Assembly (NCBI RefSeq): GCF_001027285.1
Contig: NZ_CP011509.1
Location: 4,100,501 to 4,164,500, forward strand
DNA: 64,000 nucleotides
Direction of reading: 5' to 3'
Source: Archangium gephyra
GTDB lineage: Bacteria > Myxococcota > Myxococcia > Myxococcales > Myxococcaceae
Of this stretch, positions 29,602 to 38,628 are shown in pieces. The position numbers and the translations under genes were made by a program. Numbering within the stretch: the stretch's first letter is position 1; the number at the start of each line of letters is the position of its first letter. The notes under the pieces are model-generated. The model worked only from the letters and a program-made list of their open reading frames with translations, had not been told where the DNA came from and did no database searches.

Positions 29602-29644
29602 GCAAATGCTGCGCGCGGGAAATGCGCGGGCGCAAATGCTGCGC
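29602..29644. repeat. Direct repeat GCAAATGCTGCGC in divergent promoter region
   Basis: GCAAATGCTGCGC occurs at 29602-29614 and again at 29632-29644, exactly 30 bp apart, with a related GGAAATGCGCGG between them. The 30-bp period places the two copies about three helical turns apart. The region 29532-29774 separates the decarboxylase gene from the complex III operon, so the repeat could be a regulator site for either. No known consensus was matched. Confidence 0.4.
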
Positions 29645-29774
29645 ACCTGACACTTCGCGTGGAAGCACGCGCTCTCTCGGGGTGAGGCCTGCCCGGCCGC
29701 TGGCCTTGCGGTTGCAAAGCGGCGCGATGAGCCGGGCGAGGTGTCCGGACTCTCACGAGGAGGGGCACTCCGCG

Positions 29775-30608
29775 ATGGATACATACGTCCTGAGCCGGCG
29801 CCGGGGGCGGGCACTGGCCGTTGCCGCCTTGCCGATGCTGGCGCTGCTCACCGCGCTGCCCGCGGCGGCGCAGGGAGTGCCCGAGGGGGCACAGCTCTTC
29901 AACCAGCGCTGCGCGAGCTGTCACTCCGTCGGTCAGGGAGACCGGGTGGGCCCGGACCTGATGGGCGTGCTGACGCGCCGTGAGGAGTCCTGGGTCACCA
30001 CCTTCCTGAAGAGCCCGGGCGCGATGATTGACGGAGGCGATCCAATCGCCAACGAGCTGCTCAAGAAGTTCAACGGCATCCGGATGCCGGACCAGCAGCT
30101 CACCGACGACGAGCGCAAGGGCCTGTTCGCGTTCTTCCGGGACTGCGCCGGGAAGGGCAGCTGCCAGCCGGGGGAGACCGGGCCGAAGCTGGCCTCGGAC
30201 GCCACGCCCGAGCAGATCGAGCACGGCCGTCAGCTCTTCGAGGGCCGGGCGGCGCTGACCAACGGTGGCCCGCCGTGCATCGGCTGCCACAACGTGCGTG
30301 ACATTGGCGTGGTGGGCGGCGGCACGCTGGCGCGCGACCTGACCTTCTCCTTCGCGCGGCTGGGCGAGCGCAAGATGACGCCCGCGCTCAAGGACATGGA
30401 CTTCCCGTTGATGAAGGACCTCTACGGGAAGGCGCCGCTGACGGACGCGGAGCAGTACGAGGTGAAGGCATACCTGGCGAGCGTCTCGCGCGACGGCACG
30501 CCGCCCCGGAAGGACCGGGACTTCTTCTACCTGGGCTTCGTGGGGATGGGCGTCGCGTTGGGCTTCATCGGCATCGTCCTGGGCGGCCGTGGCCGCGCGA
30601 AGAACTGA
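29775..30608 (+). CDS. Di-haem c-type cytochrome with C-terminal membrane anchor
   Basis: 277 residues from the ATG at 29775. Signal peptide to about residue 33 (LLTALPAAAQG). First haem motif CASCH with a downstream Met in the GPDLMGV/GIRMPDQ region, second motif CIGCH in GGPPCIGCHNV. A single hydrophobic helix near 250-270 (FFYLGFVGMGVALGFIGIVL) would anchor it to the membrane, haems outside. It is the first gene of the alternative complex III operon, 16 bp before the NarI-like gene, and is not one of the six core subunits. It may accept electrons from the complex or deliver them to the cbb3 oxidase. Confidence 0.9.
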   Translation: MDTYVLSRRRGRALAVAALPMLALLTALPAAAQGVPEGAQLFNQRCASCHSVGQGDRVGPDLMGVLTRREESWVTTFLKSPGAMIDGGDPIANELLKKFNGIRMPDQQLTDDERKGLFAFFRDCAGKGSCQPGETGPKLASDATPEQIEHGRQLFEGRAALTNGGPPCIGCHNVRDIGVVGGGTLARDLTFSFARLGERKMTPALKDMDFPLMKDLYGKAPLTDAEQYEVKAYLASVSRDGTPPRKDRDFFYLGFVGMGVALGFIGIVLGGRGRAKN

Positions 30609-30624
30609 GAGAGCGAGGCGACCC

Positions 30625-31263
30625 GTGAGCAACACGTTCCTCTACGATTCCCTGCCGTACCTGGTGCTGGTGCTCGCCGTGGGCGTGCCCGCCTGGCTGC
30701 GCCACCGTGAGCGGCTCTCCGCCTGGGTGCTGCGGTGGGTGGAGCGCGAGGGTACCGGCTCGGCGGCCGTGTCCCTGGTGGTGGGCGCCACCCTCATGCT
30801 GCTGTGGCACGCGGCCTGTTTCCTCCTGCCGCACCCGGTGCAGCTCTTCATCCGCTCGCCCATGCGCCTCTTCCTCCTGGAGGTGGTGGGGCTCATCGGC
30901 GGGATGATGCTGGCCTGGGGCCTGGTGGCGAGCATCATCCGCAGGCTGTCGAGCCGTGACCCGGGTGCCCGTGCATGGCTGCCCTTCCAGGCGCTGCTGC
31001 TGGCCGAGGTGCTCAATGGCCTCGTCATCGCCGTGGCGTACCGTTGGGCCTCGGCCTGGTACGTGAGCGTGGTGGTGCCGTATCTACGCTCGCTGGTGAC
31101 ACTCCAGCCGGATGCGACGCTCATCGCCCAGCTGCCGCTGACGGTGCGGTTGCACCTCTTCGGGGTGCTCGCGCTGCTGCTCGCCTGGCCCCTCACGCGC
31201 TGGCTGGCCTCGGAATCCTCCGCGCCCGGTCTCGTGTCCGCCCGGGAGGAGACCGCCGGATAG
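30625..31263 (+). CDS. NarI-like membrane cytochrome b subunit
   Basis: 212 residues from the GTG at 30625. Five hydrophobic segments. His residues on or near the helices (RHRE, LLWHAACF, VRLHLFGV) are placed as in the gamma subunit of respiratory nitrate reductase, which binds b haem and quinol. The start FLYDSLPYLVLVLAVGVPAWLR resembles NarI-type proteins. No nitrate reductase catalytic genes are present; the gene lies between the di-haem cytochrome and actA. It may form a quinol-oxidising cytochrome b/c pair with the preceding protein; this is inference. Confidence 0.7.
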   Translation: MSNTFLYDSLPYLVLVLAVGVPAWLRHRERLSAWVLRWVEREGTGSAAVSLVVGATLMLLWHAACFLLPHPVQLFIRSPMRLFLLEVVGLIGGMMLAWGLVASIIRRLSSRDPGARAWLPFQALLLAEVLNGLVIAVAYRWASAWYVSVVVPYLRSLVTLQPDATLIAQLPLTVRLHLFGVLALLLAWPLTRWLASESSAPGLVSAREETAG

Positions 31264-31277
31264 GCGGAGACATCCCC

Positions 31278-31903
31278 ATGATCGACCCGACCCGAGCCTC
31301 GCTGCTCTCCGGTGTGCTGGCCGCCCTCGCGATGGGGGGCTGTGACACCACGCCGGTGAACAACAACCAGAACTACATGCCCGAGCAGCCCATCGCGTTC
31401 TCGCACGCGGTGCACGCCGGCCATTACGAGATCGACTGCCAGTACTGCCACGTGGGCGCGGAGAAGAGCCGGCACGCCGGTATCCCGCACGCCGGGGTGT
31501 GCATGAACTGCCATACCCAGGTGAAGACGGACTCGCCGGAGATCCAGAAGCTCACCCAGGCCGTGAAGCTCAACAAGCCCATCGAGTGGGTGAGGGTGCA
31601 CCGGCTGCCGGACCACGCGTATTTCAACCACGCCAACCACGTCACCGCCGGGCTGGAGTGCCAGAAGTGCCACGGCCCGGTGCAGGAGATGGTGCGGCTG
31701 GAGCAGGCGGAGCCCATGACCATGGGCTGGTGCCTGGACTGCCACCGCCAGACGCAGGAGTCGCGGGCGAAGGCACCGGTGCCGCCGCTGGCATCCGGTG
31801 TGCTTATGGCTTCCGCGTCCGGGGTGCCCACGGTGAAGGCTCCCACCCCCCCGCGCCTCGCACCCTGAATCCTCCCACCGACTGCTCCGGCTGCCACCGC
31901 TGA
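31278..31903 (+). CDS. actA: Alternative complex III subunit ActA, multihaem cytochrome c, frameshifted at a C7 run
   Basis: Signal or lipoprotein start MIDPTRASLLSGVLAALAMGGC, then haem motifs CQYCH, CMNCH, CQKCH and CLDCH. ActA is a pentahaem cytochrome c. In the sequence as given, translation stops at 31868 with only four motifs. A run of seven C lies at 31846-31852; one more C continues the frame to a fifth motif, CSGCH (31883-31897), and a TGA at 31901-31903, three bases before actB. The restored protein has 208 residues. The surrounding operon is tightly packed, so the restored end also fits the gene spacing better. ActA passes electrons within the periplasmic part of the complex. Confidence 0.9.
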
Positions 31904-31906
31904 GGA

Positions 31907-34894
31907 ATGAGCACCATGTCCGAGACGACCCCCAAATACTGGCAGAGCCTGGCCGCGCGGGCCGGAGACCCGGCCGTGCTCGAGCGCTCGCGCAACGAGT
32001 TCGCCGAGGAGCTGCCCGTGGGCGTGGCGGCCCAGCCTCCGGACGCGAGCTCGCGCCGGGACTTCTTCAAGGTGATGGGCCTGAGCGCCGCGGCGGCCAT
32101 GGTGGCCTGCCAGCGCGCGCCCGTGCAGAAGGCGGTGCCCTTCCTCACGAAGCCAGACGAGCTCACCCCCGGTCTGTCCCTCTGGTACGCGTCCACCTGC
32201 GGCGCGTGCAGCGCCCAGTGCGGCGTGCTGCTGAAGACGCGCGATGGCCGCCCCATCAAGGTGGAGGGCAACGCGGAGCACCCGGTGTCCCGCGGTGGCG
32301 TGTGTGCCGTGGGCCAGGCGTCCGTGCTGTCCCTCTACGACGCCAACCGCTCCCGCTGGCCGTCCGTGGGCGGCACGAAGGCCACGTGGGCGAGCCTGGA
32401 CCAGGCCGTCACCGAGGGGCTGCGCAAGGTGGCGGAGGAGGGGAGGGCCATCCGGCTCGTCCTCCCGTGGGTGATGGGGCCCACCGCCGAGGCCGCCGTG
32501 GCACGCTTCCTCGCCGCGTTCCCCACGGCGCGCACGGTGCGCTACGACGCCACGGGTGAGCTGGAGGCCATCGCCGAGGCGCACCGCCTCACGCACGGTG
32601 TGCGCGTGGTGCCGGACTACCGCTTCGACCAGGCGAAGATCATCGCCAGCTTCGGCGCGGACTTCCTGGGCACCTGGGTGTCGCCGGTGGCCTTCACCCG
32701 GCAGTACAGCACGGCGCGCGATGCGGCCGGTACGCGGGAGATGGCGCGGCACTGGCAGCTCGAGCCGCTGATGACGCTGACGGGCGCGAGCGCCGACAAG
32801 CGCGTGCCGGTGGCCGCTTCCGACATGGTGCCCGCGCTGGCGGGGCTGGTGAAGCGGTTGGCCCAGAAGGCCGGCCGCGCCGTGGAAGGCCTCTCGGGCG
32901 TGCCCGTTTCGCGGGTGGATGCCTCGGTGCTGAACACGCTGGCCGACGAGCTGTGGGCCGCGAAGGAGAAGGCCCTGGTGGTGTGTGGCGGCGACGAGCC
33001 CGTGGCGCAGGTGCTGGCCAACCTGGCCAACGAGCTGCTCGGCAATGCCGGCACCACGGTCTCCGTCTCCGGTGGCCTCACCCTGGACGCGGGGGCGATG
33101 GGTTTGGGCGAGCTGCTCGCGGAGCTGGAGGCGAAGCAGGTGGGCGCCGTCCTCTTCCACGGCGTCAACCCGGCCTACACGCACCCTCGGGGCGAGGCGC
33201 TGGCGGAGCTGCTGAAGGACGTGGCGGTGACGGTGGCCACGAGCGACCGGCTCGACGAGACGGCCTCGCTGGTGCGTTTCCATGCGCCGGACCACACGCC
33301 GCTGGAGTCCTGGGGTGATGCCGAGCCCCGGCGGGGCGTGCTGAGCCTGCGCCAGCCGGTGGTGTCTCCGCTGCACGAGACGCGCGGCACGGTGGAGTCC
33401 CTGCTGAAGTGGGCGGGGGTGGAGCAGTCGCACCACGACTTCCTGCGCGCCCGCTGGGAGGCGGAGATCTTCCCGCGCGCCAACGTGGCCACGGGCTTCC
33501 AGGCCTTCTGGGACGAGGCGGTGCGTCAGGGCGTGGCGGTGGTGTTGCCACAGCCGGCCACCACCGAGAGCCCCGCGTTCCGCCCCGAGAGCGTGGCGGC
33601 GGCACTGGCGGGCACGGCGGCGGCGGACGAGGGGCTCGAGCTGGTTCTGTATCAAAAGGTGGGCTTGAGGGACGGCACGCTGGCCAACAACGGCTGGCTG
33701 CAGGAGATGCCGGATCCGATTTCCAAGGCCACCTGGGGCAACTACCTCTGTGTGGCACCCGCCACGGCCACGAAGCTGGGCATCAGCGACGGCCAGGTGG
33801 TGCGGGTGAGTACGGGAGGGAAGACGCTCGCGGTGCCGGCGCTGGTGCAGCCGGGCACGCATCCGCGGGCGCTGGGCCTCGCCATGGGTTACGGCCGGAC
33901 GAAGGTGGGACGTATCGGGAACGCAGTGGGGGAAAACGCCTTCGTCCTGGCCCCTTTCAACAACGGGAAGGTGCGCCACGCGGCGCTCGGGGTGACGCTG
34001 GAGGTGACGCCCGAGACCCGGCCGCTGGCCCTCTCGCAGACACACGCTTCAATGGAGGGGCGTGGGCTGGTGCGCGAGGCCGAGCTGGCGGCGTTCCTCG
34101 CCAACCCGCGCGCGGGCAACGAGCAGGAGGGGGGGCACGGTGGTGGCCACCCGCTCTCCATCTGGTCCGGCCACGAGTACAAGGGCCACAAGTGGGCGCT
34201 GGCGGTGGACTTGAGCGCGTGCACGGGCTGCTCGGCGTGCGTGGTGTCCTGCCAGGCGGAGAACAACATCCCCATCGTGGGCGAGGACGAGGCGCTCCGG
34301 CAGCGCGAGATGCACTGGATGCGCATCGACCGGTACTACGAGGGCGAGCCGGACGCTCCCCGGGTGGTGCACCAGCCGATGATGTGCCAGCACTGCGACA
34401 ACGCTCCGTGCGAGACGGTGTGCCCGGTGCTCGCCACGGTGCACTCGACGGAGGGCCTCAACCAGCAGGTCTACAACCGTTGCGTGGGCACGCGCTACTG
34501 CGCCAACAACTGCCCCACCAAGGTCCGCCGCTTCAACTGGTTCGACTACAAGCACGACGAGCCGCTGGAGCGTCTGGTGCTCAACCCGGACGTGGTGGTG
34601 CGCACGCGCGGCGTGATGGAGAAGTGCTCGCTGTGCGTGCAGCGCATCCAGGAGGGCAAGGCCGAGGCGAAGCGTGATGGGCGCGAGCTGCGGGATGGAG
34701 ACATCCGCACCGCGTGCCAGCAGAGCTGCCCGGCCCAGGCCATCCACTTCGGCGACATCAACGACCCGAACAGCGACGTGGCGAAGCTGGCGAAGAGCGG
34801 GCGCGCCTACCGGCTGCTGGAGGAGATCAACATCGGGCCGGCCGTGACGTACCTCACGAAGATTCGCAACACCGGAAACGGGAGCGCGGAATGA
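31907..34894 (+). CDS. actB: Alternative complex III subunit ActB, molybdopterin-oxidoreductase-like/Fe-S protein
   Basis: 995 residues. A Tat-type segment ([16 protein letters not shown], about 49-64) suggests export with bound clusters. Residues about 90-700 resemble a molybdopterin oxidoreductase, including [11 protein letters not shown]; in known complexes this part has no molybdenum cofactor. The C-terminal about 240 residues are a four-cluster ferredoxin domain: [32 protein letters not shown] and CSLCVQRI ... CQQSCP. It forms the periplasmic electron wire from the quinol site to the cytochromes. It overlaps actC by 4 bp (ATGA). Confidence 0.95.
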
Positions 34895-36381
34895 GCAACC
34901 AGCACACTTCCACCCTCCGGGTGCCGCTCGTCAGCGAGGAGCGCACCCTCGGCCAGCTCACGGAGGAGATCTGCGCCCCCATGGAGCGCAAGCCCTCCCG
35001 CATGTGGTGGGTGGCCTTCGCCCTGGCGGTGGCCACGCTCGCGGTGGGCGTGGGCATGGTCACCTACGAGGTCTCCACGGGTATCGGCGTGTGGGGCCTG
35101 AACAAGACGATCGGCTGGGCCTTCGACATCACCAACTTCGTGTTCTGGGTGGGCATCGGCCACGCGGGCACGCTCATCTCCGCCATCCTCTTCCTCTTCC
35201 GGCAGAAGTGGCGCACGAGCATCAACCGCGCCGCCGAGGCCATGACGCTCTTCGCCGTCATGTGCGCGGCCATCTTCCCGGTCATCCACATGGGCCGGCC
35301 GTGGAACGCCTTCTGGGTGCTGCCGTACCCCAACAGCCGCGGCTCCCTGTGGGTGAACTTCCGCTCGCCGCTCTTGTGGGACGTGTTCGCCATCAGCACG
35401 TACTTCACCATCTCGGCGGTGTTCTGGTACTTCGGCCTCATCCCGGACCTGGCCACGGTGCGCGACAGGGTGAAGGGCGGGCTGAAGAAGGCCGTCTTCA
35501 AGGTGATGTCGTTCGGGTGGACTGGCTCGTCGCGCACCTGGCACCGCTACGAGACGGTGTACCTGCTGCTGGCCGGCCTGGCGACGCCGCTGGTGCTCAG
35601 CGTGCACACCATCGTGTCGTTCGACTTCGCCACCTCGGTCATCCCCGGCTGGCACACCACCATCTTCCCGCCGTACTTCGTGGCCGGCGCGGTGTTCAGC
35701 GGCTTCGCCATGGTGCTGACGCTGATGATCATCACCCGCGTGGTGCTGGGCTTCGAGCACCTCATCACCATCCGCCACCTGGAGAACATGACGAAGGTCA
35801 TCATCGTCACGGGTGGCATCGTGTCGCTGGCCTACGGGACGGAGTTCTTCATCGCCTGGTACTCGGGCAACCCGTACGAGAAGTTCACGTTCATGAACCG
35901 CGCCTTCGGTCCGTACGCGTGGGCGTACTGGACGATGGTGACGTGCAACGTGGTGTCGCCGCACCTGTTCTGGTTCAAGAAGGTGCGCACGTCGCCCGCG
36001 GCCATCTTCGTGCTGTCGCTGGTCATCAACGTGGGCATGTGGTTCGAGCGCTTCGTCATCATCGTGACGTCGCTGCACCGGGACTTCCTGCCCTCGAGCT
36101 GGTCCATGTACACGCCCACGGTCGTCGAGGTGGGCACCTTCGTGGGCACCTTCGGCCTCTTCTTCACGCTGTTCCTGCTGTTCACCCGGGTGCTGCCCAT
36201 CATCTCCATTGGCGAGGTGAAGAGCGTGGCGGCCTTCGCCCGGGGCTCACACGCCCCCGCGCATGACGCCTACCCGGCCCACGGCTCCGAGACTCCGCAC
36301 GAGCACCCGGCCGAGGCGCCGGAGCCCCTGCCCACCCCGGCCCTGGCGGCCGTGGCGGTGCGAAAGGACATGCCGGTATGA
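34891..36381 (+). CDS. actC: Alternative complex III subunit ActC, NrfD-like quinol-binding membrane protein
   Basis: 496 residues with about ten transmembrane helices. Markers include [19 protein letters not shown] and the loops [19 protein letters not shown] and [18 protein letters not shown], characteristic of NrfD/PsrC-family quinone-binding subunits. It holds a quinol-oxidation site near the periplasmic face and may conduct protons. The C-terminus has a His/Ala/Pro-rich tail (about 450-490). The start overlaps actB and the stop overlaps actD, both ATGA. Confidence 0.95.
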
Positions 36382-36896
36382 GCCCGTCCCAGTCCGTCCT
36401 GCTCAGCTACTTCGACAGCGAGGAGCACGTCCTCGAGGCCACCCGGGCCGCCCGTGAGGCCGGGTACGCGGTGCATGACGTCTACACGCCCTACGCCATC
36501 CACGGCATGGACGAGGCCATGGGGCTGAAGCCCTCGCGCCTCACCTGGGTCTGCTTCGGGGCGGGGTTTCTGGGCGCCACGTCCGCGCTGTCGCTCCAGT
36601 ACTACACGTCGGTGGTGAGCTGGCCGCTCAACGTGGGCGGCAAGCCGTTCAACTCGTTCCCGGCATTCATCCCGGTGACCTTCGAGCTCACCGTGCTGTT
36701 CGCGGGACTCTTCACCGTGGCGGCCTTCCTGCTGCGCTCGCGGTCCTTCCCCGGCAGCAAGCGGGAGGCGCTGCCCCGGGTGACCGATGATCGCTTCGTG
36801 CTGGCGCTGCGCGCGGACGAGTCGGACGCGAAGGTGAAGGCACTCCTCGCGCGGCACGGTGCGCTGGAGGTGGAGCAGATGGAGGTGGCGTCGTGA
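36378..36896 (+). CDS. actD: Alternative complex III subunit ActD (DUF3341)
   Basis: 172 residues. A soluble N-terminal part ([38 protein letters not shown]) is followed by two transmembrane helices around residues 55-120 and a cytoplasmic C-terminal domain ([14 protein letters not shown]). This matches the DUF3341 family, which is ActD. It has no cofactor and stabilises the membrane part. It overlaps actC (ATGA) and actE (GTGA). Confidence 0.93.
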
Positions 36897-37465
36897 AATG
36901 GCTCATCATGGGGACCAGCGTGCTCGCCGCGGCCCTGCAGGTGGGGTGTGAGCGGGACGTCTCCCAGCCCAACCTCGAGTACGCGCCGGACATGTACGGC
37001 TCCGTGCCGTACGACAGCTACGCGCCCAACCCCAACACGCGCGATGGCAAGACGTTGATGGCGCCCGCACCGGGCAGCATTCCCCGGGGTTACTCGCCGC
37101 TGCGCTATGGCCCGGGCCCCGAGGAGGCCACCCGCGCCGCCACGGACCTGAAGAATCCCTTCGAGTCCTCGGAGCCGGTGCTGGAGCGCGGCAAGGTGGC
37201 CTTCAACCGCTACTGCTCGCACTGCCACGGCTCGGGTGGGCTCGGGGACGGGCTGGTGGCCGCTCGCTTCCCCCGGCCTCCGTCGCTGCTGGCCGAGCAT
37301 GCCCTCGGCCTCGCCGACGGGCAGATCTTCCACATCATCACCCAGGGACAGGGGCTGATGCCGGCCCATGGCTCCCAGGTGGCACCGGAGGATCGCTGGA
37401 AGATCGTCCATTACCTGCGCTCGATGCAGTCTCCGGCGCGGACCGCGCGGAAGGACACACCATGA
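36893..37465 (+). CDS. actE: Alternative complex III subunit ActE, mono-haem cytochrome c
   Basis: 190 residues from a GTG whose GTGA overlaps the actD stop. A lipobox-like signal, LAAALQVGC, makes it a probable lipoprotein. The single haem motif CSHCH lies in VAFNRYCSHCHGSGG with a candidate axial Met at GLMPAHG. ActE takes electrons from ActA and passes them to the oxidase or soluble cytochrome. It overlaps actF by ATGA. Confidence 0.94.
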   Translation: MKWLIMGTSVLAAALQVGCERDVSQPNLEYAPDMYGSVPYDSYAPNPNTRDGKTLMAPAPGSIPRGYSPLRYGPGPEEATRAATDLKNPFESSEPVLERGKVAFNRYCSHCHGSGGLGDGLVAARFPRPPSLLAEHALGLADGQIFHIITQGQGLMPAHGSQVAPEDRWKIVHYLRSMQSPARTARKDTP

Positions 37466-38628
37466 GCTCCTCGGGAATCGTCGTCGGCCCCAACATCCGC
37501 GGGGTTTGCATGGGAGTGGCGGCGCTCGGCCTGTCCGCACTGGGCGCGGGTCTGGCCCTCTCGCCCACCCGCGGCTTCTCCAGCCTGCTGATCAACGGCT
37601 TCTTCTTCCTCACGCTCGCACTGGGCGGCGCGGTGTTCCTCGCGCTCAACTCCGTGGCCAACGCGGGCTGGTACACCGTCTTCAAGCGCATCCCCGAGGC
37701 CTTCGCCTCCTACGTGCCCGTGGGCGCGGCGAGCCTCCTGGTGGTGCTCGCGGGGCTGCCCTCGCTGTACCTGTGGGCCCGCCCCGGCGTCATGGAGACG
37801 GACCACCTGCTGCACCAGAAGGCCGCCTTCCTCAACGCGCCAGGCTTCGCCATCCGCATGGCCGTGATGCTGGCTATCTGGGCCTTCTTCACCTGGCGGC
37901 TGCGGCGGAACTCGCTGGCCCAGGACTCCGAGGCCTCGCCCAGGCCCACGCGGCGGAACGTGGCCACCTCGGCGGTGTTCCTGGTGCTGTTCGCCATCAC
38001 CTTCTGTCTGGCCAGCTTCGACTGGCTGATGAGCCTGGAGCCGCACTGGTTCAGCACCATCTACGGTCTCTACAACATCGCCGGCATGCTGGCGTCGAGC
38101 GTGGCGGCGATCACCGTGGCCGTGGTCCTGATGAAGCGCTCGGGGCTGATGAAGGAGATCAACACCAGCCACCTGCACGACCTGGGCAAGCTGATGTTCG
38201 GCTTCGCCACCCTGTGGGCCTACCTCTGGTTCTCCCAATTCCTGCTCATCTGGTACTCGAACATCCCGGAGGAGACCGTCTACTTCATCCACCGGATGCA
38301 CGGGGGCTGGGAGCCGCTGTTCTACTTGAACCTGGCGCTCAACTGGGCGCTGCCCTTCGTGCTGCTGTTGCCGAAGCCGGCCAAGCGCAATCCCTCACAC
38401 CTGTGCTTCGTCGCTGGCGTCATGCTGGCGGGCCGGTGGTTGGATCTGCACCTGATGATCTCCCCCGCCAACATGCCCGAGTACGCAGGCGTTGGCGTGT
38501 GGGACGCGGCGGGGCTGCTGGGGCTCGGAGCTCTGTTCGTGCTGACGGTGACGCGGACGATGGGCTCGGTGCCGCTCATCGCGCGCCATGATCCGTACCT
38601 CGTGGAGAGTCTGCACCACCACACCTGA
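37462..38628 (+). CDS. actF: Alternative complex III subunit ActF, quinol-binding membrane protein
   Basis: 388 residues with about ten transmembrane helices. Recognisable features are NSVANAGWYTVFKRIPEAFASYVP, CLASFDWLMSLEPHWFSTIYGLY and YLWFSQFLLIWYSNIPEE, typical of ActF, the second NrfD-like membrane subunit. It is the last core gene, and a strong terminator follows 40 bp later. With actA-E it forms a complete alternative complex III, which oxidises menaquinol and reduces cytochrome c in place of a bc1 complex. Confidence 0.95.
   Translation: MSSSGIVVGPNIRGVCMGVAALGLSALGAGLALSPTRGFSSLLINGFFFLTLALGGAVFLALNSVANAGWYTVFKRIPEAFASYVPVGAASLLVVLAGLPSLYLWARPGVMETDHLLHQKAAFLNAPGFAIRMAVMLAIWAFFTWRLRRNSLAQDSEASPRPTRRNVATSAVFLVLFAITFCLASFDWLMSLEPHWFSTIYGLYNIAGMLASSVAAITVAVVLMKRSGLMKEINTSHLHDLGKLMFGFATLWAYLWFSQFLLIWYSNIPEETVYFIHRMHGGWEPLFYLNLALNWALPFVLLLPKPAKRNPSHLCFVAGVMLAGRWLDLHLMISPANMPEYAGVGVWDAAGLLGLGALFVLTVTRTMGSVPLIARHDPYLVESLHHHT

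Follow-up and report, generated by a model that had tools for sequence, protein, structure and literature searches.

In ActA of alternative complex III from Rhodothermus marinus, haems II-III and IV-V are bound by two di-haem subdomains (residues 45-89 and 121-165). Haem I, which has His/Met ligands, lies apart from them at the interface with ActB, at a distance of about 11 A to the [3Fe-4S] cluster (PMC5928083). Flavobacterium johnsoniae survives the deletion of actA, but its electron supply to cytochrome aa3 is abolished (PMC8552683).

The window analyzed here, a 64,000-nucleotide stretch of the Archangium gephyra DSM 2261 genome (contig NZ_CP011509.1, 4100501-4164500), contains an actA gene whose reading frame, as written, stops before the last haem motif. 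To judge from the nucleotide sequence and its relatives, this apparent truncation is most likely a sequencing error rather than a new four-haem enzyme.

Results

The locus is an alternative complex III operon with the order actA-actB-actC-actD-actE-actF, and its actA is of the ordinary pentahaem type. The original prediction had named the gene as that of the pentahaem cytochrome of this complex, and the assignment holds. The product as written has Pfam cytochrome c7/c3 domains and matches the solved ActA chains 8k9e, 6btm, 6f0k, and 6lod with E values of 1e-32 to 1e-41; the matches that cover both di-haem subdomains have E values of 1e-39 to 1e-41. It contains two di-haem subdomains and four CxxCH motifs with the spacing conserved in ActA. 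The C-terminal fifth CxxCH that ends the protein is missing from the written frame; it is present and conserved one frame over. The gene is assigned to ActA and the written reading frame is not, the missing fifth motif being judged a probable sequence error.

The genes downstream of actA, all on the forward strand like actA itself, represent the ActB-type, NrfD, ActD, and monohaem cytochrome families in that order. ActB, the molybdopterin-like plus iron-sulfur subunit, is encoded at 31916-34894. The ORF with actC (NrfD family) is at 34714-36381, actD is at 36378-36896 (Pfam ActD, 1.1e-56), and actE, encoding a monohaem cytochrome c, is at 36893-37465. A membrane ORF at 37462-38628 has no family match and is probably actF by its position.

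Two further electron transfer genes lie directly 5' of actA. The first, at 29622-30608, encodes a cytochrome c that has two CxxCH motifs, and the second encodes a NarI-like cytochrome b (30589-31263; PF02665, 7e-20). The pair is found upstream of actA in all of the Archangium, Myxococcus/Pyxidicoccus, and Hyalangium orthologues checked, and a NarI-like match is also found near actA at three loci (L049, L057, and L060). The pair at 29622-31263 may serve this complex as an additional module on the quinol side.

The written actA frame is one base short. It extends from 31278 to 31868 on the forward strand (stop TGA at 31866-31868) and encodes 196 amino acids with four haem motifs, CQYCH, CMNCH, CQKCH, and CLDCH; this frame, its four motifs, and the run of seven C at 31846-31852 are as originally described. 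The run is one base short compared to all relatives, and against the nearest sister the window sequence at this site lacks exactly one base. With one base added to the run, actA is restored to a protein ending in LNPPTDCSGCHR with its stop at 31901-31903; the frame that is reached reads PPAPRTLNPPTDCSGCHR and ends at 31903. The claim that an extra base would give a fifth motif and a later stop is thus borne out, and relatives carry both. The conserved C-terminal coding stretch APRTLNPPTDCSGCHR (31853-31903 with its stop, forward strand) holds the fifth motif and is out of frame as written. The match between the window and its relatives at the end of actA is far above chance.

The lost end of ActA is undecayed, and the base loss, if real, would be very recent. 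Compared with A. violaceum Cb vi76, the closest sister, the 51 nucleotides after the run carry a single synonymous change, against 34 changes in the preceding 480 nucleotides of actA. The fifth motif, the later stop, and the overlapping ribosome-binding sequence of actB are all intact. The restored actA stop overlaps this ribosome-binding sequence in a conserved TGAGGA at 31901-31906 (forward strand).

The actA and actB genes are tightly packed, as predicted, but the predicted spacing of three bases between them is probably not real. That spacing depends on the in-frame ATG at 31907, which is made by bases peculiar to this genome. In the relatives the start codon of ActB is the ATG that corresponds to 31916, and its ribosome-binding sequence, GAGGA, overlaps the actA stop.

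A terminal haem motif is universal among the ActA proteins compared. A relative of the window ActA is found in 95 of the 96 genomes of the family. The C-termini were taken from the loci read, from Archangium to Bacteroidetes, one of which gave none. All 78 non-redundant C-termini come from proteins with five to seven CxxCH motifs, and in each of them exactly one residue follows the last motif. These 78 include four Archangium orthologues, all with the terminal motif, and the two five-motif paralogues of this genome, near 440 kb and near 10.93 Mb. Homologues ending at the same place as the window frame were part of what would have refuted the original prediction, but among the 78 C-termini none ends there, and none lacks the terminal motif. 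One genome of the same genus (G002) has actA relatives that are only about 44-51% identical and has no close orthologue of the window actA, so the operon in the window is not universal and appears to be dispensable in the genus.

Other genes in this assembly also lack single bases. The comparison with the sister genomes G005 and G006 covered about 800 kb around the window and another 120 kb around rpoB. One G or C is missing from an NAD-dependent epimerase gene (contig position 4007655, in a run of eight C), a DUF1963 gene (4035466, checked against G005 only), recT (4086291), and an L-asparaginase gene (4364434, in a run of six G). In each of these four the downstream protein is conserved in the shifted frame and the sisters are intact. 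Of the 28 C/G runs of seven or more bases for which both sisters gave an alignment, two, in the epimerase gene and actA, are one base longer in both, and most keep the frame. Within the main region, G006 has no losses of this kind over 224 kb, and G005 has one or two credible ones over a similar length. A 56-kb region around rpoB has none in this genome.

The excess of one-base losses over the sisters is only suggestive. The count of five in this genome against about two in the two sister genomes (one-sided binomial, about 0.05) comes from a final list that was partly hand-sorted and that rested on judgement of which ORFs are genes. Frameshift candidates upstream of metH (4027157) and hemE (4266178) were discarded as intergenic sequence read as coding. 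A codon-position frameshift test with strict thresholds gave too few events to be of use, and before filtering most of its candidates were non-coding or antisense. In every case the loss amounts to one absent G or C. Some of the affected runs have two to four bases, and this pattern is easier to explain by base-calling error than by slippage in the cell.

Discussion

The truncation of an ordinary pentahaem ActA is most likely due to the omission of one base from a C homopolymer during sequencing or assembly, by an error in base calling or in assembly. We infer an error rather than a mutation from the universal terminal motif, the undecayed lost end, and the other one-base G/C losses in the assembly. 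In the cell itself actA is very likely in frame, and its product would end in CSGCHR. Against this, homopolymers mutate in living cells too, and the two further ActA copies could cover a loss. A genuine slipped-strand mutation that arose recently in the culture or strain used for sequencing ranks second and is unlikely. Such a mutation would truncate actA, remove haem I, and impair this copy, and the two other copies of alternative complex III or other oxidases would carry the flux. It is consistent with the mutability of homopolymer runs, the two additional five-motif actA genes, the dispensability of this copy in the genus, as seen in G002, and the survival of F. johnsoniae after deletion of actA (PMC8552683). 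However, the lost end shows no decay, and similar losses occur in unrelated genes, including some in very short runs, which are unlikely to slip.

The remaining explanations accept the short run as real and are much less probable. It is very doubtful that slippage on the C run, in translation or transcription, still yields full-length ActA. The sequence C CCC CCG, with the zero-frame codons ACC CCC CCG, has the X XXY YYZ form of a -1 slippery site, but the sister sequences inspected contain no long C run at this site. The signs of a programmed -1 frameshift, a heptamer conserved in relatives and downstream structure, are absent; the structure of the downstream RNA does not exceed that of shuffled sequence (z = 0.45), and slippage would leave the other one-base losses unexplained. 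Phase variation was rejected because the C run is not common to the sister sequences seen. Still less credible is a selected four-haem ActA in a complex that functions without the C-terminal haem, for which the sole point is that the written frame encodes four motifs. The original prediction had raised a complex with a four-haem ActA, if the loss is real; a working complex of this kind is not supported, given the 78 C-termini, the intact lost end, and the other G/C losses. In addition, the C-terminal motif should hold haem I, and its loss would break the electron path at the entry. It would be just as surprising if the loss were real and one of the three copies of alternative complex III used an ActA without the entry haem, with electrons bypassing the complex or leaving it by another path. 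If this were true, such a complex would offer a natural experiment on whether the step from the ActB cluster to haem I is needed.

The fifth motif probably corresponds to haem I. In R. marinus ActA the C-terminal CxxCH is at about residues 206-211, outside both di-haem subdomains, so by elimination it would bind haem I in that structure and, by analogy, here. In the intact protein haem I, bound by the terminal CxxCH, would receive electrons from the ActB [3Fe-4S] cluster and pass them through haems II-V to ActE. Truncation would deprive ActA of the entry haem, and the complex would probably be disabled rather than merely one haem down. With two actA paralogues in this genome and no close orthologue in G002, such a loss could be tolerated.

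Conclusions

Single bases appear to have been omitted from G/C runs in the A. gephyra DSM 2261 reference assembly. Its broken genes should therefore be checked before they are called pseudogenes.

QrcA, the multihaem subunit of the menaquinone reductase Qrc, is from a related cytochrome family, and the match to its model (NF041781, 82.5 bits) was considered as an identity for the window gene and rejected: the score is well under the curated NCBIfam cut-off of 180, and the neighbours are the fused ActB-type and ActD genes. With the solved ActA proteins of alternative complex III from R. marinus (6f0k), F. johnsoniae (6btm), and Roseiflexus/Chloroflexus (6lod, 8k9e), the window gene shares the first four haem motifs, their spacing, the domain order, and actB to actE downstream. 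Unlike those proteins, the frame as written is without the C-terminal CxxCH and the one residue after it, and the stretch that encodes them is present out of frame.
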